This document shows, piece after piece, positions 8,961 to 25,513 of a DNA stretch of 26,976 nt. The translations under genes and the position numbers were made by a program. Each line of letters opens with the position of its first letter. Position 1 is the stretch's first letter. The notes below the pieces were generated by a model. It searched no databases, had not been told where the DNA came from, and saw only the letters and a list, made by a program, of their open reading frames with translations. Source of the DNA: Agmasoma carcini (nom. nud.) (Eukaryota > Microsporidia > Thelohaniidae); assembly GCA_029232285.1 (NCBI GenBank), contig JAOXFI010000041.1, forward strand, positions 1-26,976, given 5' to 3'.

Positions 8961-9440
8961 CAATGTTTTTTATATATAAAAAACTTAAATTTACTTTTTT
9001 TTATTTTTAATTTGAAGTCAAATCTATTTTTGCAAATAATTTAAATATATATTATGAAAAAATATAATTTTCTATAGAAGTATATGAGCGGTAAATATCA
9101 AAATTCGAGTAAAGATGTGACAGTAAGGATATTAGGATTACCATTCTTATTGAATATTTAAATAAACAATATTTTTAAAATATATATTAACACTTAAAGA
9201 CATGGTTTTTAGTCCCTTTATTGATATAATGTTTAAAAATCAAGAAGTCTTGGGTTTATTGTTGTTTAGGTGAATGAGAACATATTAAATTTTAGATCAA
9301 AAGTCAAAGGGGTGAATACAAGAGCATTTACTTAAATTATTTCTAACAAAAGGGGATTAAGTTTAATCCCAATAATTATTATTCAGAAGACCAAAATAAA
9401 CATAAAATTTATATCATTTTGTATAAATTAGAGTTTTAAT

Positions 9441-9875
9441 CAGTAACGTTGGAAACGACGGCTAATAGGGCTATAACAGGTCAGGTCGTATTGATACAGA
9501 TAACTTTGCTCACTCTGGAAACTGGTTCGTGGTCGATAGACAAATTTCTTTCCCCATTGGCAGGGAAATACCATTTCTTAAAGATATAAGATAGGATGTA
9601 CGTAATAGTACTAAGCCCAACTATAATATATTATAGTGTCTTTAAAGTCTTATTCCCACCTTCTAAGATACATTGAAAACAATTTTTCTACTTCCTTTTA
9701 CCAAAGCACGAATAGTGTATGGTCTTTAATATCTGCTTTTATATTTTATTGTTGCTGTTTAATTTAGAAGTTTTTACTTGCAGGTTCGGTTTTTATCCTC
9801 TAGTAAGTTTATTGATAATTAAAATTCTTTGTAAAATACGTGAATACTAGCGTTTGAAATCGATACTACTTTGAG
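9441..9875 (+). repeat. Structured repeat family, copy 1
   Basis: This copy aligns by eye with the copies at 20046-20340 (inverted), 20440-20965 and 21061-21176 (inverted). Shared blocks in order are: CAGTAACGTTGGAAACGACGG; CACTCTGGAAAC then GTCGATAGACA; AAAGATATAAGAT; GTACGTAATAGTACTAAGCCC (4-bp stem, 9598-9611); a perfect 18-base palindrome at 9620-9637; GTGTCTTTAAAGTC; the ACCA...TGGT hairpin at 9700-9723; TTAGAAGTTTTTACTTGC; and an end block GTAAGTTTATTGATAATTAA...TCGATACTA. There is no open frame. Several short helices are kept with changed base pairs between copies, which suggests descent from a folded RNA. Confidence 0.75.
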
Positions 9876-9919
9876 TCTTATTTAATACTTTAATTATTAT
9901 AAATAATAATTTATTCATA

Positions 9920-9970
9920 TTATATAGTCTCTATCTAATTACAAACATTTCACATCAAACGTAAACAATC
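9920..9970 (+). repeat. Fragment of dispersed AT-rich CACATCTA repeat
   Basis: TATCTAATTACAAACATTTCACATCAAACGTAAAC matches the units at 52-105 and 12860-12900 (CTTTCACATCAAGCTACAAAC). The rest of the spacer up to 10440 is featureless A/T-rich sequence. Confidence 0.5.
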
Positions 9971-10440
9971 TAACAATATAATAATATATATTAATTTAAA
10001 ATTTACAACTAGGTATGAATTATTTACAATTAGATGGAGAAACGCTATATAATATCTACATTCATTTTTTTTAAAAAAACTTATTTGATAAAAACAAATA
10101 AATCATGTAAAGCTACGTAAGTCACCAACTTATCCATTATTATCATTAATATATTTTCCTAATGATTTGATTTGTCAATTCAATTTAACTATAAATAATA
10201 TAGTTACATCATTAATTTATTTATAATCATATTTTTCAATTGATAATGACACAACAATTCAATATTTAAATACAACAAAACATGAAAAATCAATACTTTA
10301 AAAAGCTTGAGATTGATAATTTCAATGTATAAAACTAAAAACATGTTTAAATATAAATTTATTTTGATTAACTAACTAATCTTAATATTTTACATTTTTC
10401 ATAATATTTTATTCATAATTGAAAATTTTTATTTTTTTAC

Positions 10441-11088
10441 ATGGAAGGAGGTTTCACATCTAGTCAGAATAATCAAGTGACAACAGCTAAAACTATACGC
10501 AACTTAACATCTAAACAAGTAAGCAATTGTATAGTTGACAATAATAACTTTATACTCAACAATATTGAATTATCTACCGTCGTAATGACTGGCCTTGTAA
10601 AAACTAAAACAGTCACAAGCAATGGTGCAATATTTGAAATTGATGACACCACAGGCAATACAAATTGCACAATGTGGACAAATTCTGTATACGATGAGAT
10701 GTCCTTGTCTAGATTGGATGGGTTGGTCAAGCTGGTTGGAACATTGAGGGTTTATAATGAAAAAAAAATATTATCGGTAAGCGGTGTGAAGCGTGTTGAA
10801 CCAAATTATTTGATTTATCATTTAACTAAGTGTATTTATGAATATTTAGGTGTTACTAATAGTCTTTTTAAGGAACAAAAGAAGTTTTCTAAGTTTAGTA
10901 AAGTGCAAGATGATATATTGAAGGTATTTAGAAATAATCAAGATGATAATGGATTGGATGTTGATACTGTAATATCAATGCTATCTTCTAAGTATCGTAA
11001 AGATGACATCTCATCGAACATTGAAATGCTTGCACGTGATTGTCATTTATATCCTGTTGCTGAAGGTATTTATAAGACAATTAATTAA
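10441..11088 (+). CDS. RFA2: Replication protein A 32-kDa subunit (RPA2)
   Basis: This 215-residue protein is the middle subunit of the RPA single-strand DNA-binding complex, acting in replication, repair and recombination in the nucleus. The Gly/Phe/Ser start (MEGGFTSSQ) corresponds to the N-terminal region phosphorylated in other eukaryotes. The OB fold spans about residues 36-125, with VVMTGLVKTKTVTSNGAIFEIDD, TGNTNCTMW and VKLVGTLRVYNEKKILSV in the expected order. A C-terminal winged-helix region (about 150-215) contains VQDDILKVFRNNQDDNGLDV and ends with the DCHLYPVAEGIYKTIN pattern. Length is slightly below the usual 250-270. The start follows AAAATTTTTATTTTTTTAC. It stands alone between transposon-rich spacers. 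Confidence 0.93.
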   Translation: MEGGFTSSQNNQVTTAKTIRNLTSKQVSNCIVDNNNFILNNIELSTVVMTGLVKTKTVTSNGAIFEIDDTTGNTNCTMWTNSVYDEMSLSRLDGLVKLVGTLRVYNEKKILSVSGVKRVEPNYLIYHLTKCIYEYLGVTNSLFKEQKKFSKFSKVQDDILKVFRNNQDDNGLDVDTVISMLSSKYRKDDISSNIEMLARDCHLYPVAEGIYKTIN

Positions 11089-11139
11089 ATTAATTTTGTT
11101 TATAAAATTTTGATACAAAATATTTGGTGTTTGATTGAA

Positions 11140-11440
11140 TTATGACAGGGGGTGGAACCCACTAAAATTTTAAAATAATTGTTTGATGTTATATACTGTA
11201 ATTTACCTTTATAAGCTTTACGAAGAATCAGAAGTACAATTATAAATGATGATAAGGGGTTACGTATAAGCTTTAAACTTTAGCTAACGACATTTTCAGC
11301 GAAGATTAATCAATTCTTGAAGATATAAGTAACTAAAATGTAAAGCTTTAAATTTAACTGTAAATGTATTATATGGTAATGTCTATGTTTTTGAAATCAC
11401 CATCCAGGGTGGTATGAAGGCCAGTTTTTGCTGCTATTTT
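11140..11440 (+). repeat. Structured repeat family, divergent candidate copy
   Basis: Weak resemblance to the family: GATAAGGGGTTACG then TTTAGCTAACGACATTTTCAGCGAAG; ATTCTTGAAGATATAAG; and ATCACCATCCAGGGTGG, in the same order and spacing as in the copies at 17791 and 22437. The conserved 5' and 3' ends are not recognisable. Treat as tentative. No gene seen. Confidence 0.35.
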
Positions 11441-11689
11441 ATAAAATATGATTACTATTAATGTTATCCATTACTTCTTTACTGATATGTTCCCATTGTT
11501 AGGATTTTTACCACAAGTAATTTTATTTTGTGCTTTTATATATGAACTTTAATAATAAAATTTTTAAATATTATTTAACTGATGTTGAATTTGTTTTATA
11601 TTTTAATATTATACCACTGTTAAAAAAATTGTAGTGATTTATAAATGAGAGCAGTAAATATTATATTCAAATCGTTTATATAAAGAATG

Positions 11690-12490
11690 ACCAATTATAT
11701 CTACATTTAAATATATCTGAATTTGATAATTCCTTATTTCACATTGACTTAACAAGGGTATGAGTTGTAATAGAATTGCTAAAAATATAAATTTTGGGTG
11801 ATATGCAATAAGACAAAAGCAACAGTCATATGGCAATAAAACATTGTTCAAAAGGGTGAAGAAGTATATAACTAGTTTAAATAAGAATGTCAAAGTGTCG
11901 TACTTGTTATTTTCTAAGGTATGGTTTAATAACCAGTTTACCCGTCAAAAACAGTATAATTCTTTTTTTTTATTTAACTAAGTATTTAAAATGAACCCCA
12001 AAACATAATTTTCACTGAAAAAGTAAAATTCAATGTATTTAATACTGATGGTTGTTGTTATATAAGACATTTCAAAGGAGAAAAGTATGAAACAAAACAT
12101 TATTGGATCTGTTAAGCACGGTGGAGGTAATATTTCGGTATAAAAACATATGAAGGGACCGAAGAATAGTTGTTTATCAAAGATACAATAACTGTTGCAG
12201 CATATAGACAAACAATATCAAAAATCTAAGGAAAATATTATCTGAAATGGGGCTTGTAAATTCTATTTTTGAACATGATATTGACCCAAAACATACATCA
12301 AGTATTGTAAGTACATTGATGTGTTATAATGGCTTCCTAAAGACCAGATTTGAATACAATAGAACATGGTTCGACTTATATTAATACTTATTTAAGTAAA
12401 AAGGAAGATCTAAACAATAAATCATCATTATTTGAAATTCTATTACTCTGTAAATGATCAAACCATACATTTAAGTTTCTCAAGCAGAAT
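11690..12490 (+). mobile_element. Dead Tc1/mariner-like transposase
   Basis: Plus-strand translation with frame changes gives a Tc1-type DDE transposase. IFTEKVKFNVFNTDGCCY (about 12008-12062) aligns with the first-Asp block, but the catalytic Asp is replaced. FKGEKYETKHY follows, then SVKHGGGNISV (about 12110-12142), the TVKHGGGSVMVWG hallmark. SEMGLVNSIFEHDIDPKHTSS (12240-12303) carries the second Asp block normally written QQDNDPKH. A garbled SPDLNPIEH block with the third acid follows at about 12340-12370. Several in-frame stops are present. No terminal repeats were identified, unlike the related element at 18267-19398. Confidence 0.8.
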
Positions 12491-12739
12491 TTGGTTATTT
12501 ATAACACAAAAAAAAAGCATACAAATTATTAAAATATAACACAATGGTACATGATTCTTATTTATTCTTGTATATATATTGTTTGTAAAATATATATATA
12601 TCTTTTAAAGTATTTAAATATATTTGTTTACGTCTTACAGTATAATAAATTTTAATAATTATTGTAAATACTAATAATATTGAATTTTTTTTATTAAGAT
12701 TAATATTTATTATTAAATTCAAAAATTAACGAAAAAATT

Positions 12740-12920
12740 GCAAATACTACACATCTATTTATATTTCAATAAAAAATCAAATCTTTCACATGTATATTTA
12801 AATTTTTCTTTTTAACGCGTAAAATTGGTTAAATTTTCGTTATATTTCACATATATTTTAAATCTTTCACATCAAGCTACAAACATTACATACCTAATTA
12901 TAAAATTTTATATTATAAAA
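12740..12920 (+). repeat. AT-rich CACATCTA repeat, left inverted copy
   Basis: CACATCTATTTATATTTCAA, CTTTCACATGTATATTTAAA, TTTTTAACGCGTAAAATTGG then TTAAATTT, and CTTTCACATCAAGCTACAAAC then CATACCTAATTATAAAA. In the same order but on the opposite strand these blocks recur at 15940-16100, including the rare ACGCGT and TTTTGGTTAAATTT. The two copies bracket about 3 kb that holds a LINE relic and an IS630-like relic. Confidence 0.7.
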
Positions 12921-13079
12921 ATAATATATTGTTTCTGGTATATATCACATTAAATATGAACAAATCATACCAGAATATATTGATTGGCTGATTATCCATA
13001 ATATGGTTAAAATAACATCTATTCTAAAACCCAACATTATATCAAGGCGATTTTATTACATAAACTTGAATTTACATAT

Positions 13080-13570
13080 ATATACAATATTTTCATCCGG
13101 TTGTCTACCACCGCAAAGTTTTCATTCTAAAGAATAAAGGTATTTGTATCATTTACAAGAAATAGACCTCTCCATCGCTTATATGGTTTATATAACCGAA
13201 TACAAAAACAAGTTTATTGATTGGGATGTCCTATAGGCAAAAAACATAACACCTATCTATCCTAAGGGTTATCAGGGTCTGTAAACTCAGATTGACTACC
13301 ATATACTCATGGCACTTTAGTTTAAGAGAAGATGTAAAAATATGCAGGCATCATTATTACAACATATATAGTCGTTCGGAGTTAGGGTTGCGATAACAAG
13401 TGCAACGGCAAAGCCTCTCAGTCCAGAGGTAGGCAATTTTTCTTTGAAAGCTAGTTGCTAGTCACCATTTGTTAGATCTTTATTGTATCAATGCAGCGTG
13501 ATTGACTTCATCGTATGGTTATGAGTGACCACCTTTTAACATTTAGAGTGTATTACTTTATACGTCTTAA
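13080..13570. other. Unassigned island of more mixed base composition
   Basis: Noticeably richer in G and C than its surroundings. It contains small potential hairpins, CCTCT-CAGTCC-AGAGG (about 13411-13427) and TTGC...GCAA (about 13388-13406). No frame stays open and I recognise no protein, tRNA or rRNA. It could be the 3' end of the adjacent LINE relic or a decayed member of another repeat family. Confidence 0.3.
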
Positions 13571-13999
13571 ATTATTTGTATAGCGAAATTAGTTTTTTAT
13601 AAAATTGTTCTAATAATTTTTTTGGGTTTATTTTTAAACATTATATCACATTATAATACTTTCCTCATTAGCTCGTATTTACTCCATTTATATTTTTCAA
13701 AAATATTTCTCTTTTGTCATTCACAAGTTCATGGTCTTTTAATATATGCATAGTATTGTCTATACCTTTTCTACTATATCCAATACATTTTAAGAATGGT
13801 TGTATAAAGCTTAAAACTATTACTAAATCTTTGGTATTAAAGTAAACATCTTAGGATCCAGTTGTATAGATGGTAGTTGTCATAGTCTTATACTGATTGA
13901 TGAATATATATTTATATTTGGTAGAGATTATTGCTTTTTGACTAATTTTGCAAAAATCAATTTTTATTTCCTTTGACTTTCTTGGTATATTCTTTTTTT

Positions 14000-14900
14000 G
14001 TGTTTTTTAATTTGCTCAAAATATTGTTTTAAATATATCTTACAATATAACTTTTGTGATTATCATCTACGTTCTTCTTTTCATTTTGGGAAGAGGTAAA
14101 AATATATATAATTATTGTGTTTGAAATTCTTTATTTGATATACTATAATCTTGTTTATATCAGTTCTAGTAGTTGGATGAGATAAAACAAACTCATCACA
14201 AGCTTTTTTTCTGTTGAACATGCTTCTTCTTAGCACTACAGTCATTATTTCATCAATTTTTTATTGTTATTATAAAGAGTTCAGAGCAATATAATAGAGT
14301 CGATATTCCTATGTTTCAAATTTTAAATTTTAAAATGTATTGGAAATATTTTCCGGAATAGTAACTGTTTGAAGGTTTTAATTTTGCTACATTTCCTCCT
14401 TATGTTAAACTTTACAATATCATCGATACTAAAATTTTCGGTTATTTCTAGTCCTAGGTATGTATATGATTTTACAAATTCTATCTTTATATTTCAATCA
14501 GTACCGGAAGAGGTAGATAATCATTAAACCACTCTTTTTATAGTTAATTGCTATTTTATTAACTATCTCTCTAGCTTTTCTCATGGTTTTAAAGCTGTTG
14601 TCAGCGAACTGCAATTTTTTTATTTTCTCATTTAATTGCTACGAATATTCTTTCTAAATTATCTAACATATTATTTCATATATGTTAAGGAGCATCGGGG
14701 TCGATGAGCAGCCTTGACATACACCTTTTCCCATAGAAAAGATTCAGTATATGTAATATGATTGAATATATTTATTTAAAAATGTTTCTCGTGCAATTGA
14801 TTTATCTAAATAACAGAGAATATTTATAAAATAACCATTATAATTATCAGAAATATATTATTAAACCCGTTTTTAGTCAATCCCCTAAGCTCAATCTTAT
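14000..14900 (-). mobile_element. LINE (non-LTR retrotransposon) reverse transcriptase relic
   Basis: Minus-strand translation from about 14870 downward gives a decayed non-LTR reverse transcriptase. MGKGVCQGCSSTPMLLNIYE (about 14675-14734) is the GVrQGcpLSPtLFNiY motif. SLQFADNSFKTMRKAREIVN (about 14560-14620) matches the region following the catalytic FADD box, though the second Asp is Asn. VKSYTYLGLEITENF (14431-14475) is the K..YLG block characteristic of LINE C-termini, and TEKKLVMSLF lies further on. Frames change repeatedly. The N-terminal part is missing, probably lost or displaced where the IS630-like relic begins. The clade cannot be set by eye. Confidence 0.72.
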
Positions 14901-14929
14901 TTAAACCCTCGCCTCACATAAAATAAATT

Positions 14930-15770
14930 CTTTCACTTACTGAAGCATATTTCAATATAATTAAGAAAAAGTGAATAAGAGCAGATATAGTAGCTCTAAT
15001 TCTTTGGTGCATTGACATTTTTAAGCCGCTTTATTGATTATCCCTGCATTATCTAGAATGATAATTAGAGTTAAAACACTATAAACAAAATTATCTCTAA
15101 CTATAATAGTGATTCCTTAATTATTATTCATTGCGCAAACACCGAATATTCTTAGACATAGCCTCAGAGACGTCTACATAGGCTGATTTTCTAACCGAGG
15201 AACTTTAACGCTCAGGTCTAGTGACAACATAAAAACCTATTTTATCAATGAAAGCTAAGTTTTTGTGATTAGAAGTCAGTATTGCTCTTTAAAACTTGTA
15301 TCACATTCTAATCGTAGTCTTTATGACTCTCACAATTCCTCTTTTCGGGAATTAAGGTTACTTGTTTAAAGCTATAGTGAAATCTTTTAATATACTTGCC
15401 TAATATTGTAATTCCTATTGATATACCTAATAAATCATTAAGAAGGTTTCTTAATTCATTTTAATACAACAGTTGATTAGCTTTAATCCAAGATGAAACC
15501 ATATACACTTGATCAGATGTCAATCTTGCCCATTTATCACCACTTCTGCGCTTTAAATTAATTTTTCATGTGTGAAAATAGATAAACGCAATACTTCTTA
15601 TGGTATGATAAAAAGGATTATCCTTTAGTGATCTACCCATGGGTTTTGCCCTAAACCAACTTCTCGGCTATTCTCCTTCTGTCAGTTAGGCTAATTGTAT
15701 CATTGTGTCTTCGCACACCATTGTTAAAAGAAGAGTCAATGTTTCCACAGTCGTCATCTTTAAGTGAATT
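14930..15770 (-). mobile_element. Dead IS630/Tc1-superfamily transposase
   Basis: Read on the minus strand from about 15740. ISLTDRRRIAEKLV and a following GKTHG...ITKG form the helix-turn-helix. AQKWW-like and MVSSWIKANQLLY lie in the region before LNDLLGISIGITILGKYIKRF, the second DNA-binding helix set. QVTLIPEKRNCESHKDYD leads into the catalytic core: LAFIDKIGFYVVTRPER (IDEtGF block, Glu changed to Lys), VRKSAYVDVSEAMSKNI, and LTLIIILDNAGIINKAA (about 15025-15075), the block with the second Asp. The final PyspfLNPIE block is scrambled. Multiple frameshifts. It lies against the LINE relic on the same strand. Confidence 0.75.
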
Positions 15771-15939
15771 ATAAATTGAACCTTCATTTTTATTTTGTCA
15801 AATGCGCTATTTATTTTTCACAAACACACTTACTCTATGTAATATTTATCTATTGTTTTTGATGGATTTATGTGTATTTCTACACATAATACTTAAATTT
15901 TTTCATGATTATCTAAAAAATAAAATTTCCAAATTTTGA

Positions 15940-16240
15940 TTATATTGCAATTAAGTATGTAATATTTATCTATCGATTTAGAAGTAAGTAGGAAACATTA
16001 TAGAAATTTAACCAAAATTTTTAAGTTAACGCGTTGATAGGAAAGGTTTAAAAATAGGTATGAAGGATTTGAAAATAAATAGATGTGCAATTTTTCATTA
16101 AATTTAATAGTAGATATGCATAGTTTAAAATAGATAGAAAAGAATAGATAATTTTATTTATTTAAATTTTATTTGTGTCTTGATGTGAAGATTTTAGACG
16201 TAGGTATGCAATCTTTGAAAATAGATGGACAAACCCTATG
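15940..16240 (-). repeat. AT-rich CACATCTA repeat, right inverted copy
   Basis: On the minus strand: CATCTATTTTCAAAGATTG, CATACCTACGTCTAAAATCTT, CACATCAAGACACAAA, then CACATCTATTTATTTTCAAA, CATACCTATTTTTAAACC, ATCAACGCGTTAACTT and TTTTGGTTAAATTT. These match the opposite-strand copy at 12740-12920. The first three blocks lie inside the 3' end of the 408-residue gene and encode its last residues. Confidence 0.65.
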
Positions 16241-17388
16241 AAAATCAATAAACCACCTGCAACAAAAAAACCTATAGTTGATAAGTTTTGATTAGAATCC
16301 TCATCAAGATCACCATTTATTATCTTTTCCGAATCTTCTTGACTTTCAGTATTTGATTCGGTTGAATCTAAATTTTTATCATTTGATTCATCTGAATCAA
16401 GTTCAATTTCAAAATAATTGGATTTTTCAGATTGTTTAGGCTTTTCAGATTGATCAGTTTGTAAGTTAGAAACTTCTTGATTTTCATCTCCAAGTGGTTT
16501 TGGTTCAACAGGTAGAGATTCGGTATTTTTATTCTCCTCCATGGATTCATTTTCAGAATCTAAAGTTAAATTTTCATATACCACATTATCTGATGGGTTG
16601 CTATCCTTTTCTTCCCGATAACAAACTGTATTATTTAAACAAAAATTGTCATCAAGTATTGCTAACACATAAGAATAATCAGCTTCAAATTCAATATAAC
16701 GTGGTAGATTGAATTCATTTGTATATTTCTTAAAATAATCTTTTCCCTTTGAATACCTCGAAATATAAAAAAGTTCCCAATCTTCCTTTGAATAATCCTC
16801 ACCATTATCTCTCTTTCTAAAATAAATAAAATTTTTAAAATTTTTAGAATAAAATTGGAAAAAATTTTGATGTAAACAGATATTTAAAGCTTCTCCCTTA
16901 AAGCCTTTTTCATTAATATTTTTTGGAAATACTCGAAAATTCTGACTATTAACAAAAATTATTTCTTTTATAAAATTCCCCTTGATAAAAATATTTTGAT
17001 CTTTTGAATCATGCTCTTCAAAAAATTTTTTAAATAAAGCACATCTTAATATTTTACTAGCTTTTGCAAGATCTTTTGGTGTATTCAATTTACATAAGCT
17101 TTCATATTCTTTATTTTCTTCTTTTGTACATTTAGATAATAATTTTTTAATGAGAATTTTGGTATTTTGTTTGTAAATTTGCTTTATAACATCTTTTTTG
17201 TCTTCTGATTTATTCTTTAATGTTTTGCACGTGTTTTTTATGATTTTTTTGCTAATATTTGATTTTTGAATCATATAGTTAGTAGTTCTTTGATATATAG
17301 ATTCAGCTTCGGGTGTTTTATCTTGTGAATCATCTTTATTTTTATCACAAGTAGCTTTTATAATAAAAATAAAATTAAATATTTGCAT
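16162..17388 (-). CDS. Unknown protein: candidate signal peptide, acidic stalk, C-terminal membrane segment
   Basis: I do not recognise this 408-residue protein. It starts with a hydrophobic stretch (MQIFNFIFIIKATC) that could be a short signal peptide. A Lys-rich helical region (about 20-110) follows with several Cys. Residues about 130-255 look folded and aromatic-rich (FRVFPKNINEKGFKGEAL, FYSKNFKNFIYFRKRD). Residues about 262-365 are a low-complexity Glu/Ser/Asp/Asn stalk. One strong membrane segment, IGFFVAGGLLIFIGFVHLF (about 372-390), is followed by a short basic tail. This suggests a type I surface or secretory-pathway membrane protein (inference). The start follows AAAAAAAATTTAATATACCC. 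The membrane-proximal tail and stop lie within a dispersed repeat. The long intact frame in AT-rich DNA makes it a convincing gene. Confidence 0.8.
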   Translation of the reverse strand: MQIFNFIFIIKATCDKNKDDSQDKTPEAESIYQRTTNYMIQKSNISKKIIKNTCKTLKNKSEDKKDVIKQIYKQNTKILIKKLLSKCTKEENKEYESLCKLNTPKDLAKASKILRCALFKKFFEEHDSKDQNIFIKGNFIKEIIFVNSQNFRVFPKNINEKGFKGEALNICLHQNFFQFYSKNFKNFIYFRKRDNGEDYSKEDWELFYISRYSKGKDYFKKYTNEFNLPRYIEFEADYSYVLAILDDNFCLNNTVCYREEKDSNPSDNVVYENLTLDSENESMEENKNTESLPVEPKPLGDENQEVSNLQTDQSEKPKQSEKSNYFEIELDSDESNDKNLDSTESNTESQEDSEKIINGDLDEDSNQNLSTIGFFVAGGLLIFIGFVHLFSKIAYLRLKSSHQDTNKI

Positions 17389-17399
17389 GGGTATATTAA

Positions 17400-17790
17400 A
17401 TTTTTTTTAATAAAAATTTTATTAAAAAAATATATTAATTTAATTATTTAAAAACAATTAAATGAAATGATTTAGCTGATTTTTATTTTATATTTGTAAG
17501 AATTATAAAAATTAATAAAGATATATAGATAAGTTGTTAATATTATAAATATTTTTAATTGTAAGTGAATGCCCCCTTATCTATTTTAATATATCAAAAT
17601 TATCAGATTTAATTTAACATTAAATGAGCTGATGTTGAATAATATTGTAATCGCTGTCTTATATACTTTGAAAATATATTTATTTTGCTATTAAGTAAAA
17701 ATTTAAATAGTAACCTAAACAGTAATACCGAAATTCTTATATCAGGTATCAAATACACTTTATAATTATTTATTCTATGAAAAGTCTATA
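17400..17790. other. Gene-free spacer
   Basis: The first 60 bases carry the A/T start signal of the 408-residue gene. The remainder is A/T-rich with no supported gene, RNA or element. Confidence 0.5.
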
Positions 17791-18105
17791 CCTCTACATG
17801 GTTCAGAGTGGAACATCAGTTAATTGGGATAAGACAAAGGGAGGGGTGAGAAAAAGGGACAATCTTGATCACTATAAATGACAATAAAACATATACACCT
17901 CTTAGAAGATAAAAAAATCTAATTCTTGAAGACATAGCTGGTTGCTGTGCCTAATATCACTCAAAGTAACCACAATATAGCATGATTGTATTTAAAGTCT
18001 TACAGTCACCATATATGAAGACAAGACAAACAAGTTTTCTTCTCTATTACCTAAGTGTATGATTACTATCTCTAGTCATTCCGTTTTATCTCACTGTTGA
18101 TGTGT
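17791..18105 (+). repeat. Structured repeat family, copy 3
   Basis: It begins CCTCTACATGGTTCAGAGTGG, cognate to the CCTCCACGTGATGCAGAGT start of the copy at 20440. It continues with GGGATAAGACAAAGGGAGGGG (like the 79-base units at 22463-22780), GATCACTATAA, ATTCTTGAAGACATAG, TTTAAAGTCTTACAGTCACCAT, and TTCTCTATTACCTAAGTGTATG. The order of blocks is conserved but internal helices have decayed more than in copy 1. No open frame. Confidence 0.6.
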
Positions 18106-18266
18106 TACAATATTTAAGTTTTATCACTATTATATACATTTTTTAATTTTTTTCTTTTATCAGACAATTTTCCTGGTTGGCCCAATAAATTCACATTTAT
18201 TAAAATATCTAAAGTTTTATTTCATTTTTATCAATATAAGTGATGCTTATTTATATTTTAAACTTA

Positions 18267-18281
18267 CAGTGTTGGGAAACC
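18267..18281 (+). repeat. Left terminal inverted repeat of Tc1-like element
   Basis: CAGTGTTGGGAAACC directly follows a TA dinucleotide (18265-18266). It pairs with the reverse complement of 19384-19398. Confidence 0.75.
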
Positions 18282-19383
18282 CCAGAAATAACAAAAAAGG
18301 CATATAAATACATTAAAAAACATTTTTGTATATTTGAACAATGTGTGTATATATTGCCTTAGCGGTATGGCGTACCAAGTCTCAGCAAATATCTTATATA
18401 AATAGATTTGATTTCATTAGTTTTATTTAATCTTGTTTAGTGTCTCTAATAGCTCTGCTTGTTCTGCGGAAAAAAAAATTTTTTTATAGTCTCCACTTGG
18501 TTACTACAATATATATTTACGAAATAAAATTTAATATTTAGTATGCCAATATATTGTCCTGATACAATCAATATACTTTGATTTTATACTACTTGCTAGT
18601 TTTTGATATTAACTTTAAGGTATTTCACTCCAAATTCTTTAAATGAATTACCAACATTTTTACATATGAAATTTTATTGTTTTTATCAGACAAGTTTAAT
18701 GGCTGTTAAAGATTCTCAATTTTTTTTTGAATAATACTGTGTATATTGGAAAATCGTTGTATTATTAAAAACTAAATCATATATTTTTAATCGACCCAAT
18801 ACTAGAATTGACTATTCAACACAATTCGAGTTGAAATGACCACAAATCATAACTTTATCATCACCGTGCTTAACTGTCGACACAAGATGGTTGTGATTAA
18901 GCGATGTAGACTCCTTTTCTCAGAATTGTCAATTGTTCTTTACAAATAATATAAATGTTGATCCATCTGAACATAATATTTTACACAAATATTATTCTAA
19001 TATATCCACTTCTTTGTAAAACTTAATCTTTAAATATTTTCCTGTTCACTAGGGGTTTCGAACATCAACACGTCCTTTAAACCCTTCCAGGTTAAAATAA
19101 TTATAAATTATACAGGCAGTTATATTTTTGAAATTTTTGCTATCTAAAAACGACCCAAACTGTTTTCTTTGTTTTTATAGCTATATCTTAATACTTTATG
19201 TATATATCTAATATTATACTGATAAGTAAATCTACCTTATCAGTTATACCCTTAAGCTTTAAACTTTGGTTCCTAAAAGCAATTATTCGACCTTTAACAA
19301 GGCTTGATACATGTTTACCCATTAACAGATTTTTTTGTAAATATAAATAATTTTTATTTTATTTTATATGTATTTATATGCAC

Positions 19384-19398
19384 TTTTTTCTAACACTG
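19384..19398 (-). repeat. Right terminal inverted repeat of Tc1-like element
   Basis: The minus strand reads CAGTGTTAGAAAAAA, matching the left end with few changes. TA (19399-19400) follows the end on the plus strand. Confidence 0.75.
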
Positions 19399-19549
19399 TA
19401 TATATACAATTATTTTATAATCACAAAAAAAACCGTTGTATTAACAGGATTCAATTCATTATTCTCTAATTTAATATAAAGCTAACATTCACCATTTAAT
19501 CTAGACTCTTTTAAATTAAAATCACAAAAAAAATAAATAAATTTTATTT

Positions 19550-19886
19550 ATGAAATTTTACTGTATTTTAGTAGGATTATTATTGAATATAGTAGATGCC
19601 ACAAATACAGAAAATTATACTTTGAAATTATTAAATGACTATAATTTTGATTTTGAAAAGGAATAAAATGATAAGGATGCTGAAATAAAAGTAGAAACAA
19701 CAGATACAGGATTACTAACTAACTAACATCAAATGTAATAGAAAAACAAATTCAAATCCAGAAGTAGTAGTTGAAGATATTTTAGATACAAACTTAGTAG
19801 ATGAAACAATTTCAAATCTAGAAGTAGCAGTTGAAGATATTTGTTGTAGTGATTGTGGTTGTTATAGGTGTTATGGTAATGATTGA
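19550..19886 (+). pseudogene. Small secreted protein gene broken by one nonsense codon and one CTAA-repeat frameshift
   Basis: The ATG at 19550 follows ATAAATTTTATTT, the usual start signal. The first residues (MKFYCILVGLLLNIVDAT) are a good signal peptide. The frame stops at 19664-19666 (GAA TAA AAT) after 38 codons, continues acidic to a second stop at 19724-19726, and resumes in the next frame to TGA at 19884-19886. The shift coincides with three CTAA units at 19715-19726; two units would put the whole into one frame. The 3' part has an exact-spaced 60-base (20-residue) duplication, with SNPEVVVEDI and SNLEVAVEDI, and a Cys-rich end CCSDCGCYRCYGND. So two lesions separate it from an open frame of about 110 residues. 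Product unknown. Confidence 0.7.
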
Positions 19887-19930
19887 TTATATCTCATGAT
19901 TTATAGTATATTATAAATCATGAGATATAA
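19887..19930 (+). other. Perfect 19-bp hairpin directly after the stop codon
   Basis: Bases 19887-19905 and 19912-19930 are exact reverse complements separated by a six-base loop GTATAT. The left arm starts at the base after the TGA of the broken secreted-protein gene, and an AAAA run follows the right arm. It could act in 3' end formation, or be a miniature inverted-repeat element or scar. No similar perfect hairpin follows the other genes. Confidence 0.85.
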
Positions 19931-20045
19931 AAAGTTTGGCCTTTGATTGCAGGACAAATTTAAATAAATAATTTGAATTTAGTTCTACAACAATTACTAT
20001 TAATAAGATGTTTATTTTACTCAGGCAAAGATATGAAAAATAAAA

Positions 20046-20340
20046 ACACAAAATAGTATCGATTGGAAACCTCTCCAATAATATTCACATTTTTTACAAG
20101 GAATCTTAATTATCAATAAACTTACAATATGAGAATCAAAAAACAATAATAAATATAGAAGAGACGAAAGTAGATATTAATGACCATACACTATTCGTAC
20201 TTTGCTAAAAACAGTAGAAAAACTTGATTGTAATGCCCTTATAGATGGTGACAGTAAGATTTTAAAGACATCATACTATATTGTAGCTGGCTTAGTGCTT
20301 TACGCACACTAACCAATTTATATCTTTAAAAAATGGCATT
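20046..20340 (-). repeat. Structured repeat family, copy 4 (inverted, truncated at tRNA)
   Basis: On the minus strand it reads CCATTTTTTAAAGATATAA, GTGCGTAAAGCACTAAGCC (stem, 20295-20307), GATGTCTTTAAAATCTTACTG then TCACCATCTATAAGGG, AGCAAAGTACGAATAGTGTATGGT (20182-20205), TTAATATCTACTTT, and GTAAGTTTATTGATAATTAAG...AATCGATACTATTTTGTG. This matches copy 1 closely over 9588-9875 but lacks the TTAGAAGTTTTTACTTGC block. The 5' half is absent: the match breaks off 2 bases before the tRNA-Gln gene. Confidence 0.8.
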
Positions 20341-20342
20341 AA

Positions 20343-20414
20343 GGTTTTATAGTGTAATGGTTAGCATTCGGGACTTTGAATCCCGCGACCTGAGTTCGAA
20401 TCTCAGTAGAACCA
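20343..20414 (+). tRNA. trnQ-UUG: tRNA-Gln (anticodon TTG)
   Basis: A full cloverleaf is present in 72 bases. The acceptor GGTTTTA pairs with TAGAACC (one G-T pair) and the discriminator base is A. The D arm is GTGT-AATGGTTA-GCAT. The anticodon stem is CGGGA/TCCCG with loop CTTTGAA, giving anticodon TTG. The variable loop is CGAC, and the T arm is CTGAG-TTCGAAT-CTCAG. No intron and no encoded CCA are seen; the CCA at the end belongs to the acceptor plus discriminator. The internal A and B boxes (TAGTGTAATGG and GAGTTCGAATC) support RNA polymerase III transcription. It decodes CAA (and CAG by wobble). Inverted copies of a structured repeat flank it on both sides. Confidence 0.95.
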
Positions 20415-20415
20415 A

Positions 20416-20421
20416 TTTTTT
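20416..20421 (+). terminator. RNA polymerase III T-run terminator
   Basis: Six T residues begin two bases after the tRNA-Gln discriminator base, the standard pol III stop signal. Confidence 0.8.
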
Positions 20422-20439
20422 GGCTCTTCGAAAAGTTCA

Positions 20440-20965
20440 GACCTCCACGTGATGCAGAGTAGTAAAGTTGTATAAAAGCGAAACTAATTAAACTATAACA
20501 GGTTGGGTCCTGTCAGGGGTTAAACCAAGTCCAAATGGATATGTAATATCTTGTTTACTCTGGAAAACAAGTTTGCCTTCGAGTGACAGACACCTCTTCT
20601 ATCAGTAGGGAAGTGCCACTTCAGGATCTCGAAGATATAAGATGTTTGAAGTGCGTCATAGCACTAAGCCCATCTGCAACCGCATCCTATAGGTTGGTGT
20701 CTTTAAAGTTTTGCTGAAACCTTTTCAAAATGATTTAAGATAGCTTGACGAACTTATCTACTTGTTACCAAAGCGCTTTTGCGTATGGTTGTGTTATTCA
20801 CCCGCTATCAGTTTCTTCTTTGAGCTTTTTTATGATTGATTTTACTGAGTTTAGAAGTTTTTACTTGCTGGTTTGGCTTTTCATCATTTTTTAATTATTA
20901 CTGATATTATAGACTGTTTGTAGAAAAACGGGAAATAAGCGGACAGGATTTCTGCCTCTTTTGTT
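20440..20965 (+). repeat. Structured repeat family, copy 5 (longest single-unit copy)
   Basis: The start is CACCTCC-like (ACCTCCACGTGATGCAGAGT). It then has ACAGG-TTGGGT-CCTGT (hairpin), TTTACTCTGGAAAAC, GAGTGACAGACA, GGGAAGTGCCACTTC, CGAAGATATAAGAT, GTGC-GTCATA-GCAC then TAAGCCC (20651-20664), CAACC...GGTTG (20677-20696) then GTGTCTTTAAAG, ACCAAAGCGC-TTTT-GCGTATGGT (20767-20789), TTAGAAGTTTTTACTTGC and a 3' block to GCGGACAGGATTT. It is richer in G and C than its surroundings and has no open frame. It starts 25 bases after the tRNA. It is the best template for a family consensus; function unknown. Confidence 0.8.
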
Positions 20966-21060
20966 TAGTGTGTGTTTTTATAGTAGCTTGAAAAATTGAT
21001 TTTTACAATCGCTAGATTAAATAAATCCATTATTATTAAATGGCACTTATATTAACGAAG

Positions 21061-21176
21061 AATATGTGTATGTCTATCGACTGCAAATCAGTTAACCAGA
21101 GTAAACAAGGTTAACTGTAACTCCTAAGGCTTTGTTTAGCCATTGATTCTAACGTTACCAGTCTGCATCACGTGGA
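21061..21176 (-). repeat. Structured repeat family, copy 6 (5' part only, inverted)
   Basis: The minus strand begins CCACGTGATGCAGACTGG, the same start as copy 5. It continues TAACGTTAGAATCAATGGCT, GTTTACTCTGGTTAACTG and GTCGATAGACATA, which match copy 1 (TAACGTTGGAAACGACGGCT, CACTCTGGAAACTGG, GTCGATAGACAAA). The match ends after that block. Copies 5 and 6 thus face each other. Confidence 0.75.
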
Positions 21177-21179
21177 ATT

Positions 21180-21660
21180 CTTGATTCATCAATTACAAGA
21201 TAAGTAAATCTTTATAAATATTATTTTTAAACAATTAATAAATAAAATTGATGTAATCAGTTAATACATTTTCTATAATGTAATTAAATATTATTATTAA
21301 TAGGTCTACTGCTTTAGATTGATAAAAATACATAAAAATTGATGTTGTTACATTTTTTGTTACACTTGTGATCTTGTCTACAAAATATGTTGTATAAAAT
21401 TAAAAGAAAACATAATTTGATATTTTTCTTAAATAATATGCTAAAGATTTTTATGAAGAAATAAGTATAATGAGATTCTAAGAAGAAACGGGAAAGAAAA
21501 ATGATCAATATATTATAATATATGAGTGTTAGAGTTTGATATGAAGAGTATAATAAATTTATCATTATGTTGTTAAAACAAATGCTTTTGTGCGCTAATG
21601 ACATTCATTGTCAATGTTTTTAATTTAAACCTTCAACCAGCCATATTTTAGTATTAACAG
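21180..21660. other. Gene-free spacer
   Basis: A/T-rich. A 96-codon minus-strand frame (21314-21604) is rich in Ile/Tyr/Phe/Leu, as expected by chance at this composition, and lacks the usual start signal. I do not call it. Confidence 0.45.
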
Positions 21661-21717
21661 GTTGCAGCCCTTTGACAATATGTAAGTGTTATGAATTTTC
21701 AGGGGTGTTTTTACCAA

Positions 21718-21860
21718 ATTTAAAAAAGGTTAGAACAACAAGAGTCGATTATTATATTGTGAGTGATTACTTGTATTTTTACCAATTTTATTTCTATTTA
21801 AAAAAGGTTAGAAGAATAAGAGTCGTTTATTATATTGTGAGTGATTACTTGTATTTCTAT
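21718..21860 (+). repeat. 78-base direct tandem repeat (two copies)
   Basis: Units start at 21718 and 21796. ATTTAAAAAAGGTTAGAA and GAGTCGATTATTATATTG then TGAGTGATTACTTGTATTT recur with few changes. The unit is a multiple of three, so a 76-codon frame (21672-21902) runs through both copies as a 26-residue repeat (KKVR..RV.YYIVSDYLYFY). The frame lacks the start signal of the other genes, so coding is doubtful, though a small repeat protein cannot be excluded. Confidence 0.8.
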
Positions 21861-22436
21861 TTGGTTCCGATACGAAAAATCAAAAAAGAACCAAAGGAAT
21901 AAAATTAATGGGCCATGTTTTTGGAATGATTAAAGGGATATATCACAGTTAATTATATGTTTATTCCATTGAGATGAATTATTGTTTAAAAAATGATTGC
22001 TTTAAATTTCAGACATTTTACAATAAAAAATCTTTAAAAAAATAAAACTTACCACACCCCTCATACTTCAAACAAATTTAGATTAGAATTGTAGAAAGTA
22101 TAGAAGTGATTAATATTTTTTGCTTAATACGAGATATATCCACAAATTAATAATAAAAACCATTTATTTATGATGATATTCTCTTTTAAATAAAAATTTT
22201 GTAAATTTTACCACTAATCAGATCTAATATAAAATTTATCATTTTTATAAAAATATGCTGTAATAAATATCATTACAGATTCGATTCTTTTATATTGACT
22301 TTTTATTTAATTTTAAATTAGTACAAATAACAACAAAAATTATAAAATATTTTATTTAAATATTTTATTTTAAATATTTGATTTGTGTTATTTATGTATA
22401 TATAGCTTTGTAAGATGGTTCTTTATAAATTTAGAT

Positions 22437-22912
22437 ATTCACGTGGTGAAGAGTGAAAAAATGTTAATTTAACTATAACTGATTAGGGTAGGGGCGAAAA
22501 GAGAACTTGTTGACTATAACTAGCGTTAGAAATCTCTTCTTTGTTAATTTAACTATAATGATTAAGGTAGGGCGAAAGGAGAACCTGTTGACTATAACTA
22601 ACGTTAGAAATCTCTTCTTTGTTAATTTAACTATAATGATTAAGGTAGGGGCGAAAGGAGAACCTGTTGACTATAACTAACGTTAGAAATCTCTTCTTCG
22701 ACAATTTAACTATAACTGATTAAGGTAGGGCGAAAAGAGAACTTGTTGACTATACATAACGTTAGAAATCTTCTCTTCATTGTAGGGAAATACTATTGCT
22801 TTAAGATATAAGCTGATCGATATGGATAAAGCTTTAAAACCGTTTTCTAAGTTTGAGGTGTATTTATAGTTCACTATCACCATCTAAGAGAGAATAACAA
22901 GTTATTGGTTGT
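22437..22912 (+). repeat. Structured repeat family, copy 7 with internal amplification
   Basis: It starts ATTCACGTGGTGAAGAGTG, cognate to the CCACGTGATGCAGAGT of copies 5 and 6. The interior is expanded by four tandem 79-base units (22463-22780). It resumes with TAGGGAAATACTATTGCTTT then AAGATATAAG, and TTCACTATCACCATCTAAGAG, as in copies 1, 3 and 4. The 3' hairpin blocks are lost. Confidence 0.65.
22463..22780 (+). repeat. Four tandem 79-base units within repeat-family copy 7
   Basis: Units begin at 22463, 22543, 22621 and 22700 (80, 78, 79 and about 80 bases). Each contains AATTTAACTATAA(C)TGATTA, GGTAGGG(G)CGAAA, GAGAAC(C/T)TGTTGACTATA, and ACGTTAGAAATCTCTTCTT. GAGA at the start and TCTC at the end of the second half can pair. 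Identity between units is high, so the amplification is recent. It is too long and regular in unit-to-unit contact to be a CRISPR array. Confidence 0.92.
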
Positions 22913-23119
22913 TCAATCCTTATAAATTATTACATATTGTATCGCCAGTTATTTTTATTTATTTTCTTATAAAATATAAAAAATATAATTATATTGAAAA
23001 ACAATTACTATGAGTTTTTCTTTTTCCAATATAATTATAAATATTATGATTTAATATATATATATTTAATTAAAATATGTTTATTTATAAATTTTTAAAA
23101 ATAGGGCATATATTTACAA

Positions 23120-23929: not shown

Positions 23930-25513
23930 AAAATTGAAATAATTTTATATAATAAAATTATTTGTACATATTTTATAATATAATAATAATTTTGTACATA
24001 TTCAATAATATAATAATTATGGTGGTATTTTTATGATCACAAAAATATTTTTGGGTTCGGGTTCATTTTAAGTAATTTTTTATAATTATAAACATAGTAA
24101 GATTACCGAATAAAACTATATTGTATTATAGAGCTATTTTTGATAAATTCTTTAATTACCCTACGTGTAAAGACTTACTATACTTAAAACTCAAAGATAA
24201 ACAAGAGAGATTCAATGGCTAGCATAGTTTAGATTCTGTGTGAATACAATGAATTGTGCGGCATGTAAAAACTTAAGGGTACTGATTAGCGATAGTTCAA
24301 CATCTAAAGGGTATTTTTAGAAATAACCGAGTTGAAACATTATATTATTATAAAAAATAAAATCTTATTTTATATATATAAAATTATGTAAATAATATAC
24401 AAAATAAGTTTTGATATAATGTTAAAACATCATATATCAATTAAAAACAGTTAAGGATGGAAAAGAGGTGAATAAAAATAGTGCAATGTATTTTCTTATG
24501 AAAAAAAACAAGAAAATGGGGGTTTAAATATAGATAGAAGTAAGAAGGTGGTTGAGAGCTCATCTTTAAACGCAAAAATTATAGAGGAAAGACAAAAATC
24601 AATAATTAGGTAAATAAGAGAGAAACCAGCAACTGCTTCATAGGTGTAGTTGAATACAAAAATATACAGAAATTATAGTAATTAATAAAAAAAGATCTTT
24701 AAGAACAAAATGATCATGATGATATGTAGAAAGCGTTCAAATCCGCATTTAATTTACTATTAACATATATGAGCATTATATGGTAAATCATCTCATAATT
24801 TCGTAGATTCGATTAATCTGCGCGTGCATACCCAAACAATCAAATAATAATTTATGTTTAAGATAAAAATTGACTTAGATTTTATGTTCTGCTTATTATT
24901 TAGAGTTCTGAATAATATGACCAGAATTTAAATTTGCTTTTGTCATTTTCAATAAACCAAATACGGTTCTGTCTCGTTTGCAATATACAGAAAATTAGAC
25001 TAAATTCCAAACATAAGCTTTGTATACAATAAATAACAAAAATAAGGGTATTTGAGATATAATATTACCATAAAACAACTAGATATTATTGAGCTGGTCT
25101 CAATTGTTAAGCAACAATATATTACTTCGTTCTTAATACAAAGTATAAAGGTTTTGTTTAACCTTTACCCATCGCATCATAGAGAACACAACACCCAGAA
25201 CAAGCAACACCTAGCACGCGGCAACAACAAGATTAATAAATCATTTATAAAAAATATATTTATGTACAACGCTTTTTGGTACAACCCATAACGTGAATCA
25301 CAGCAATATATTATATAATGACAAATTATCATTTTTAAGATTATAAATTTATTGTTCAATGTCTCATAACATATTATTATCATTTTTATATGTCTATGAT
25401 ACTATAAAAATATCATATTTTAAGGTTTAATATACTATTTAAAAACAATCTATACTATAAAATAATTTAATTGTTATTATATTATATAAAATATATTGCA
25501 AACTAAATAATTT
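23930..25513. other. Long gene-free spacer
   Basis: No intact gene in about 1.6 kb. A short coding-like remnant may exist at about 24510-24640 (plus strand, GGLNIDRSKKVVESSSLNAK, then stops) but matches nothing I know. The stretch 25145-25230 is less A/T-rich and contains AAAGGTT-TTGTTT-AACCTTT, a small hairpin. A 79-codon frame at 25052 looks random. Confidence 0.5.

Follow-up and report, generated by a model that had tools for sequence, protein, structure and literature searches.

Among described mobile elements, two groups of short retroposons headed by a ribozyme of the hepatitis delta virus (HDV) type come closest to the repeat reported here, a dispersed non-coding element of the microsporidium Agmasoma carcini. 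It was followed up from a stretch of 26,976 nucleotides, in the following called the window (contig C66 of a 4.26-Mb, 69-contig genome; 25.7% GC). As the available part of PMC3774820 describes them, the short internally deleted elements (SIDEs) of R2 in Drosophila hold nothing but the 5' HDV-like R2 ribozyme and a stretch resembling the 3' untranslated region of R2. The trypanosomatid elements NARTc, RIME and SIDER are, according to the accessible sections of PMC4035085, short, truncated or degenerate relatives of long interspersed elements (LINEs) of the L1Tc/ingi clade with the Pr77 hallmark, and several 5' HDV-like ribozymes of this type were active in vitro. Measured against these partial accounts, the A. 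carcini element resembles the R2 SIDEs in its combination of a 5' HDV-like ribozyme with a LINE-like 3' end. Whereas SIDEs reside in 28S ribosomal DNA, the element is dispersed and has a long unexplained middle, and its 5' end is matched in none of the LINEs examined. With NARTc, RIME and SIDER it has in common that a short element is headed by an HDV-like ribozyme, here predicted from sequence; it differs in the kingdom of its host and in its best Rfam model, which is HDV-F-prausnitzii.

Eukaryotic genomes are known to be at their most reduced in Microsporidia. Among the open-access titles and beginnings of abstracts listed, a scope outside which most subscription papers fall, no microsporidian HDV-like ribozyme or ribozyme-headed retroposon was described. 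A survey of microsporidian transposable elements (PMC4202319) counts LINE families, with zero occurrences of 'SINE' and 'ribozyme' in its main text. By analogy, the element would work like R2 SIDEs and the trypanosomatid NARTc, RIME and SIDER, in a phylum that is new for such elements. If this is true, HDV-like ribozymes and ribozyme-headed retroposons extend to Microsporidia, and each insertion, recording where its RNA began, tests the setting of 5' ends of mobile RNAs by ribozymes. We consider it very probable that the repeat is a non-autonomous, LINE-mobilised retroposon similar to short interspersed elements (SINEs) or SIDEs, that it spread by the ribozyme/LINE cycle proposed below, and that one of its insertions produced a tRNA-element chimera in the window.

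3' hairpin and predicted 5' ribozyme fold of the repeat family

A sequence-only reading of the window had proposed a dispersed family of non-coding repeats with three conserved helices. The family is real, as profiles recovered all six of its main places (6/6). DNA searches together with a ribozyme search point to ~77 or more insertions genome-wide: 151 DNA-search matches and four window intervals, merged across gaps of ≤350 bases, give 73 places spread over 41 contigs and 33.1 kb in total; the ribozyme search added five further places, and in the window a single copy accounts for two of the places. This count is a lower bound, with the best 40 of 60, 160 and 124 candidates scored in the three DNA searches, although it may include a split copy as two. 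The nhmmer profiles were built from eight A copies, from 11 B copies and, for a wider one, from 19 B copies; in 20 Markov-shuffled windows the A and the 11-copy B profiles gave a single match at E ≤ 1 (E 0.43).

The element measures about 500–620 nt and falls into two subfamilies, A and B, which are about 67% alike. Mean identity is 87% among the eight A copies and 81% among the 20 B copies that have a 5' end. The closest pair among these 28 copies reaches 94%; all of them are diverged, and current mobility is conjectural. Aligned in one orientation, the A copies have sharp ends, from GCTCTGCGAAGAGTCC... to ...AAATAAATCCATTATTATT. No ATG-started open reading frame of at least 60 aa was found within any window copy, in agreement with the missing open frames noted earlier. 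The main places named in the sequence-only reading were correct, and their starts were not: the true first base lies 17 nt upstream of 'CCACGTG' (20423, not 20440). Its assignment to a structured RNA likewise stands. The 5' HDV-like ribozyme, the structure that tells most about the element, was missed; the copies were begun 17 nt late, and the pseudoknotted P1/P2 are hard to read off.

Element nucleotides 1–75 are predicted to fold as an HDV-like self-cleaving ribozyme, a nested double pseudoknot of P1 (7 bp), P2, P3 (3 bp), P1.1 and P4 in the order of HDV-like ribozymes. The predicted stems are P1 GCUCUGC/GCAGAGU, P2 AGUCCAG/UUGGACU, P3 ACC/GGU with the loop UCCACGU, and P1.1 CC/GG; P4 is GAAA-capped in subfamily B and followed by GGCUAAU, which bears the catalytic C. 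Over these stems, 88.4% of 455 cells in 19 aligned copies hold standard pairs compared to 30–49% in slid versions, a comparison that is favoured by the structure having been drawn on the same 19 sequences. The first P1 pair is G-U in 12 and A-U in six of them; HDV ribozymes characteristically have a G-U pair where they cut. The catalytic position, at the start of J4/2, is occupied by a C in all 19 copies (19/19), the catalytic C of HDV-like ribozymes being treated in the available part of PMC10879173. The alignment comprises 19 of the 28 5' ends, with nine rearranged or diverged ends left out: L050, L053, L066 and L076 (10-nt deletion), L058 (without the 3' strand of P2), L062 and L073 (without P4), and the diverged L057 and L077. 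The deletion takes out GTGGTGCAGA between CAC and GTGG, lies between direct repeats and removes P3'/P1'.

Comparison with known ribozymes leads to the same part of the element. In a permissive Rfam search of ten loci, HDV-F-prausnitzii was matched on six (E 0.0056 to 0.27), aligned end to end, and HDV_ribozyme on one of those six (E 3.1). Throughout the genome, the HDV-F-prausnitzii model (RF02682) found at least 20 places at E ≤ 1 (best E 1.2e-4); of 121 first-look candidates, the best 61 were scored. In 14 control genomes it found none. The 20 listed places all lie on the repeat (20/20), 15 on copies already listed and five on additional copies recognised by the repeat profiles. The match starts precisely at element position 1 in 19 of the 20, and 19 nt further in at the weakest one (contig C26, E 0.45). 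We infer that the ribozyme would cut before nucleotide 1, the position with which the insertion starts coincide.

Target-site duplications were sought between the 5' flank and the 3' region of the 28 copies with a 5' end, and 756 mismatched flank pairs served as control. Thirteen of the 28 copies show a duplication above the 95th percentile of this control, ending within 1 nt of element position 1 in 11 of the 13; the lengths are variable, 11 to 22 in the 13 best. Such flush duplications are the signature of target-primed reverse transcription. The aligned element ends showed neither direct nor inverted terminal repeats.

Near its 3' end the element has a hairpin that is also contained in LINE 3' ends of this genome, ACCA-AA-GCGC...GCGU-A-UGGU. 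It corresponds to helix 3 (ACCAAAGCGC/GCGTATGGT) of the sequence-only reading, and the covariation proposed there could be confirmed: over 26 rows (24 distinct) 95.3% of cells pair, and 13 are changed on both sides compared to 4.3 in shuffles, a covariation score reached by 0 of 500 shuffles. The rows comprise six A and 14 B copies, LINE1, LINE2 and LINE3b, and three additional copies that are LINE-like or unassigned. They were chosen by a pattern that favours the outer stem, with four substitutions allowed; the pairs left free by the pattern read A-U/G-C/G-U and C-G/U-A/U-G. Outside these rows are the other element copies as well as LINE3a and a fourth LINE tail, both with damaged hairpins. 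For helix 1 (GTGC/GCAC), whose segment is present in 39 of 41 copies (26 indel-free, 23 distinct), covariation was not borne out, with zero both-side changes and 82.6% paired compared to 83.4% in shuffles; copy 1 (GTAC/GTAC) carries an extra base at this helix and stands outside the 23 tested. Helix 2 (CAACC/GGTTG) is not a family feature, since both subfamily majorities read CAACC...GTTTGG. The A tail goes further in its likeness to LINEs: against the LINE3 tail it scores 34–43 in all seven A copies tested (7/7), compared to no more than 26 for 1000 shuffles and 24 for 1000 pieces of the window.

The LINE pieces cluster at one end of contig C48. LINE1 and LINE2 have reverse transcriptase (RT) matches and are 52% identical over 126 aa; of the LINE3 copies, LINE3a still has a remnant of coding sequence related to LINE2 (E 1.1e-18), and a second one has kept its tail alone. 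Named relatives of the LINE1 RT are Smittium and Zancudomyces proteins, labelled LINE-1, jockey or TX1 by their sources. At the contig edge (L033 2851-2912, G000:C48 end) Rfam places the 3' end of a microsporidian small subunit (SSU) rRNA. Several LINE pieces and tails follow SSU rRNA on the same strand, so that the LINEs adjoin ribosomal DNA, perhaps in a subtelomeric position.

A tRNA-Gln chimera inside an older copy

Within the window, a full-length copy of subfamily A is joined to a tRNA and nested in an older copy of subfamily B. The parts are as follows.

20331..20338, + strand: target-site duplication, 5' copy AAATGGCA
20339..20342, + strand: 5' leader of the tRNA part, 3–4 nt
20343..20414, + strand: tRNA-Gln (TTG) co-inserted with the A copy (ARAGORN; Rfam 67.2 bits)
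20415..20421, + strand: 3' trailer, A plus six T (ATTTTTT)
20422, + strand: one extra G before the element
20423..21037, + strand: subfamily-A copy, full length (nhmmer E 2e-205, A profile 1–624 of 626; the profile includes this copy)
20423..20496, + strand: degenerate 5' HDV-like ribozyme of the A copy (R1 67.5 bits, E 1.3e-12; R1 was built from 19 copies, this one included)
20767..20789, + strand: LINE-type 3' hairpin of the A copy (helix 3 above)
21038..21045, + strand: target-site duplication, 3' copy AAATGGCA
21038..21197, − strand: older B copy, first half (profile 7–187; nhmmer E 3e-26; R1 35.3 bits)
20003..20340, − strand: older B copy, second half (profile 181–571; nhmmer E 8.8e-67)
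20183..20206, − strand: LINE-type 3' hairpin of the older B copy

The E-value of the A copy is inflated by its presence in the A profile; the B profiles, which exclude it, give E 4.3e-81 and 8.3e-79. The older minus-strand copy is split at 20340/21038, and its halves overlap by profile positions 181–187. The intervals 20046-20340(−) and 21061-21176(−) were thus rightly assigned to the family by the sequence-only reading, which had taken them for separate copies; they are one older copy split by the insertion at 20423.

One 8-bp duplication encloses the tRNA together with the element, and the A copy taken alone (L001) is without duplication. The single duplication around the whole unit and its junctions point to one insertion of a pre-tRNA copy, from the leader into the T-run, plus the element. 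A parent tRNA-Gln(TTG) gene is found on another contig (G000:C31 54962-55043) with 99% identity and one difference over window positions 20340-20421 only. There, eight T follow the tRNA compared to six in the window, and the flanks beyond 20340-20421 are unmatched. The C31 tRNA has no element beside it, and over 1 kb separates it from the nearest clear copy. A tRNA adjoining the element was found in one of 30 loci scanned, that of the window.

The chimera would best be explained by template jumping. Copying presumably ran off the ribozyme-defined 5' end of the element RNA onto a pre-tRNA-Gln transcript ending in oligo-U, and the resulting tRNA-element chimera would then have been inserted into the older copy. 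Comparable fusions are the mammalian U6-L1 chimeras. For the Magnaporthe elements WEIRD, Mg-SINE and MGL, the available part of PMC2104539 reports that LINE template jumping fuses copies of different RNAs, with a 14-bp direct repeat flanking one such unit; compared with that account, the window unit differs in having a pre-tRNA upstream and a ribozyme cut site as the downstream template end. The theta ribozymes of phages are HDV-like and lie within 5 nt of a tRNA at the cut site, as stated in the accessible text of PMC10879173. The window shares with them an HDV-like ribozyme near a tRNA, at a spacing of 8 nt; unlike the phage arrangement, its neighbourhood was apparently made by one retroposition, and its ribozyme copy is degenerate.

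A possible, though less probable, origin of the unit is read-through (5' transduction) of an element formerly located directly behind a tRNA gene. It would equally yield a single unit with one duplication, and the mutated ribozyme of this copy could have failed to cut, provided that its changes preceded the insertion. Several details disagree with it. The shared part ends inside the T-run of the parent gene, after six of its eight T, and that gene has no adjoining element, with the nearest clear copy over 1 kb distant. Furthermore, no more than 1 nt separates the start of the element part from the predicted ribozyme cut site, and a tRNA beside the element occurs in the window locus only (1/30 loci scanned). 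Template jumping is therefore preferred.

Compared with the A majority, 10 of 74 positions are changed in 20423-20496 and 30 of 537 in the rest of the copy. Eight of the 10 changes are G to A or C to T, as in AT-biased decay of a G+C-richer part. The tRNA has one changed position in 72, fewer than the adjoining ribozyme with 10 of 74 (Fisher p 0.009); against the whole element (40/611) p is 0.11, and this comparison of tRNA retention was chosen after the data had been seen. It is rather doubtful, and worth stating only as a speculation, that the chimera at 20331-21045 made a second, selectively kept working tRNA-Gln(TTG) gene from an unprocessed pre-tRNA. If true, the compact genome of a eukaryote gained a working tRNA gene through a LINE enzyme and a ribozyme-cut helper RNA, and theta-type neighbourhoods of tRNA and ribozyme could originate by such insertion.

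Proposed cycle and competing explanations

According to the cycle we propose, an element copy would be transcribed within a longer RNA, whose element part would fold in its first ~75 nt as an HDV-like ribozyme and cut exactly before nucleotide 1. The cut would yield the correct 5' end without a start site of the element's own. A LINE RT would recognise the 3' hairpin common to resident LINEs, in subfamily A also the AT-rich tail, and copy the element RNA into a nicked target; such LINE-driven copying is suggested by the shared 3' ends and the target-site duplications.

The element is not a classical SINE, since no head derived from an RNA polymerase III gene was found; it is SINE-like or SIDE-like. 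No tRNA, 7SL or 5S Rfam match lies within the copies, either in the window at the gathering score or in ten loci at E ≤ 5. At the gathering score the tRNA is the sole Rfam match of the window, with none in the element body, and at E ≤ 5 the ten element loci gave only flanking 5S rRNA and the HDV families. The element would count as a SIDE if a LINE shared its 5' end, and no such LINE was found among the LINE sequences examined. One element copy is flanked by a 5S rRNA gene (L002 234-353, + strand, 85.5 bits). Strings resembling A and B boxes in the element were noticed by eye only.

Several results weigh against the proposed cycle. All RF02682 scores are at or below 35.3 bits and thus below the Rfam gathering score of 44, which lowers the claim to membership in RF02682, but not that to the wider HDV-like fold. 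Covariation failed as proof of the ribozyme: with five both-side cells compared to 3.9 in shuffles over the 19 copies, the ribozyme helices do not rise above shuffles within the family. Such a lack is expected for independently decaying copies and gives no positive support. In a tree of element bodies, the four carriers of the 10-nt deletion do not form one clade and stand in two or more separate parts; slippage may recur, or ribozyme-less copies may still be able to move. No duplication above control was found in 15 of the 28 copies, and L057, one of the 13, pairs with what appears to be its own element tail. On the LINE side, a match of the B tail to the LINE3 tail had to be rejected (scores of only 9–16 in 10/10 B copies tested), and blastn of LINE1 and LINE2 3' ends against five element 3' parts gave no match. 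As the tails of subfamily B are without a LINE match, its link to LINEs rests on the hairpin. Finally, no ribozyme was found in the LINE stretches examined by R1, Rfam and a hand-written descriptor, where intact LINE 5' ends are possibly absent; the descriptor found both positive controls (2/2), one with a P2 partner other than that proposed. No LINE parent of the element 5' end was found among the LINE sequences examined.

Based on some of these points, the repeat could be a retroposon whose 5' fold is not a working ribozyme and was kept by descent or for another structural role. This would fit the scores below gathering, the missing covariation and copy L053, in which P1' is deleted and which still has a flush duplication. 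We regard it as improbable nonetheless, because all 20 listed matches of the HDV model lie on the repeat, 19 of them at its first base, the insertion start equals the HDV cleavage position, and the catalytic C is kept in 19/19.

It is more unlikely still that the repeats form a multi-copy family of functional non-coding RNA genes, each copy encoding a conserved structured RNA. The strong conserved blocks, the covarying 3' hairpin and the ~77 or more places agree with such genes; target-site duplications at the ends, 5' truncation and nesting of copies, ribozyme helices broken in several copies and a 3' end of LINE type do not, and no pair among the 28 copies exceeds 94% identity. The sequence-only reading had left open a SINE-like element, a multi-copy non-coding RNA and an element resembling a terminal-repeat retrotransposon in miniature (TRIM). 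Of these, the SINE-like element with a structured RNA is retained and the other two are given up, since target-site duplications, the LINE-type 3' end, nesting and the lack of terminal repeats at defined ends argue for a LINE-mobilised retroposon. A TRIM derived from a long terminal repeat element or a miniature inverted-repeat transposable element would also be short, non-coding, dispersed and AT-rich, and a Ty3-like RT frame (L032; class by eye) occurs in the genome, yet without direct or inverted terminal repeats at the aligned ends, with duplications varying from 11 to 22 in the 13 best and with a LINE-type 3' hairpin this origin is hardly credible.

Further copies and neighbouring features in the window

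Besides the nested pair, the window contains the following copies.

9426..9912, + strand: B copy, 5'-truncated inside the ribozyme, from about element position 40 (nhmmer E 8.3e-99; R1 32.4 bits)
9700..9723, + strand: LINE-type 3' hairpin of this B copy
11297..11442, + strand: possible very decayed copy (nhmmer, wider profile E 0.0013, narrower profile E 0.94)
17772..18111, + strand: decayed B-like copy, ribozyme start recognisable (nhmmer E 5.5e-24; R1 35.7 bits)
22417..22925, + strand: decayed copy with an internal tandem array (nhmmer E 1.8e-10 at 22764-22902; R1 30.6 bits at 22418-22476)

The underlying profile matches in the window are 9443-9891(+), 17774-18103(+), 20340-20015(−), 20423-21037(+), 21191-21039(−), 22764-22899(+) and 22425-22497(+). 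The tentative copy at 11140-11440 of the sequence-only reading shrinks to 11297-11417, where the wider profile gives E 0.0013 and the other E 0.94, and is probably a very decayed copy. The tandem array at 22462-22771 lies within one element copy and has a period of 79 nt, 3.9 copies and 93% matches; a search using the 22417..22925 copy gave no second such 79-nt array. At 21718-21859, two 64-nt copies, 94% identical, stand at a spacing of 78 nt.

Traces of other mobile elements were also seen. A decayed LINE1-like element is indicated by RT and C-terminal matches at 14740-14549(−) and 13841-13698(−), with E 6e-6 and 4e-5, and is followed by a LINE-type 3' hairpin at 13321-13298(−). By eye, a decayed Tc1/mariner-like transposase with KHGGG-like and PDLN-like stretches and broken frames can be recognised at 12080-12420(+). 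A 34-nt inverted pair at 11975-12008 and 24049-24082, 76% complementary, might represent DNA transposon ends. Among the products of the window's long open reading frames are ribosomal protein L21e, a protein with an S4 domain and a DEAD-box helicase. The best named matches of the helicase are microsporidian (Glugoides, Vittaforma and Nosema; 49–51% identity).

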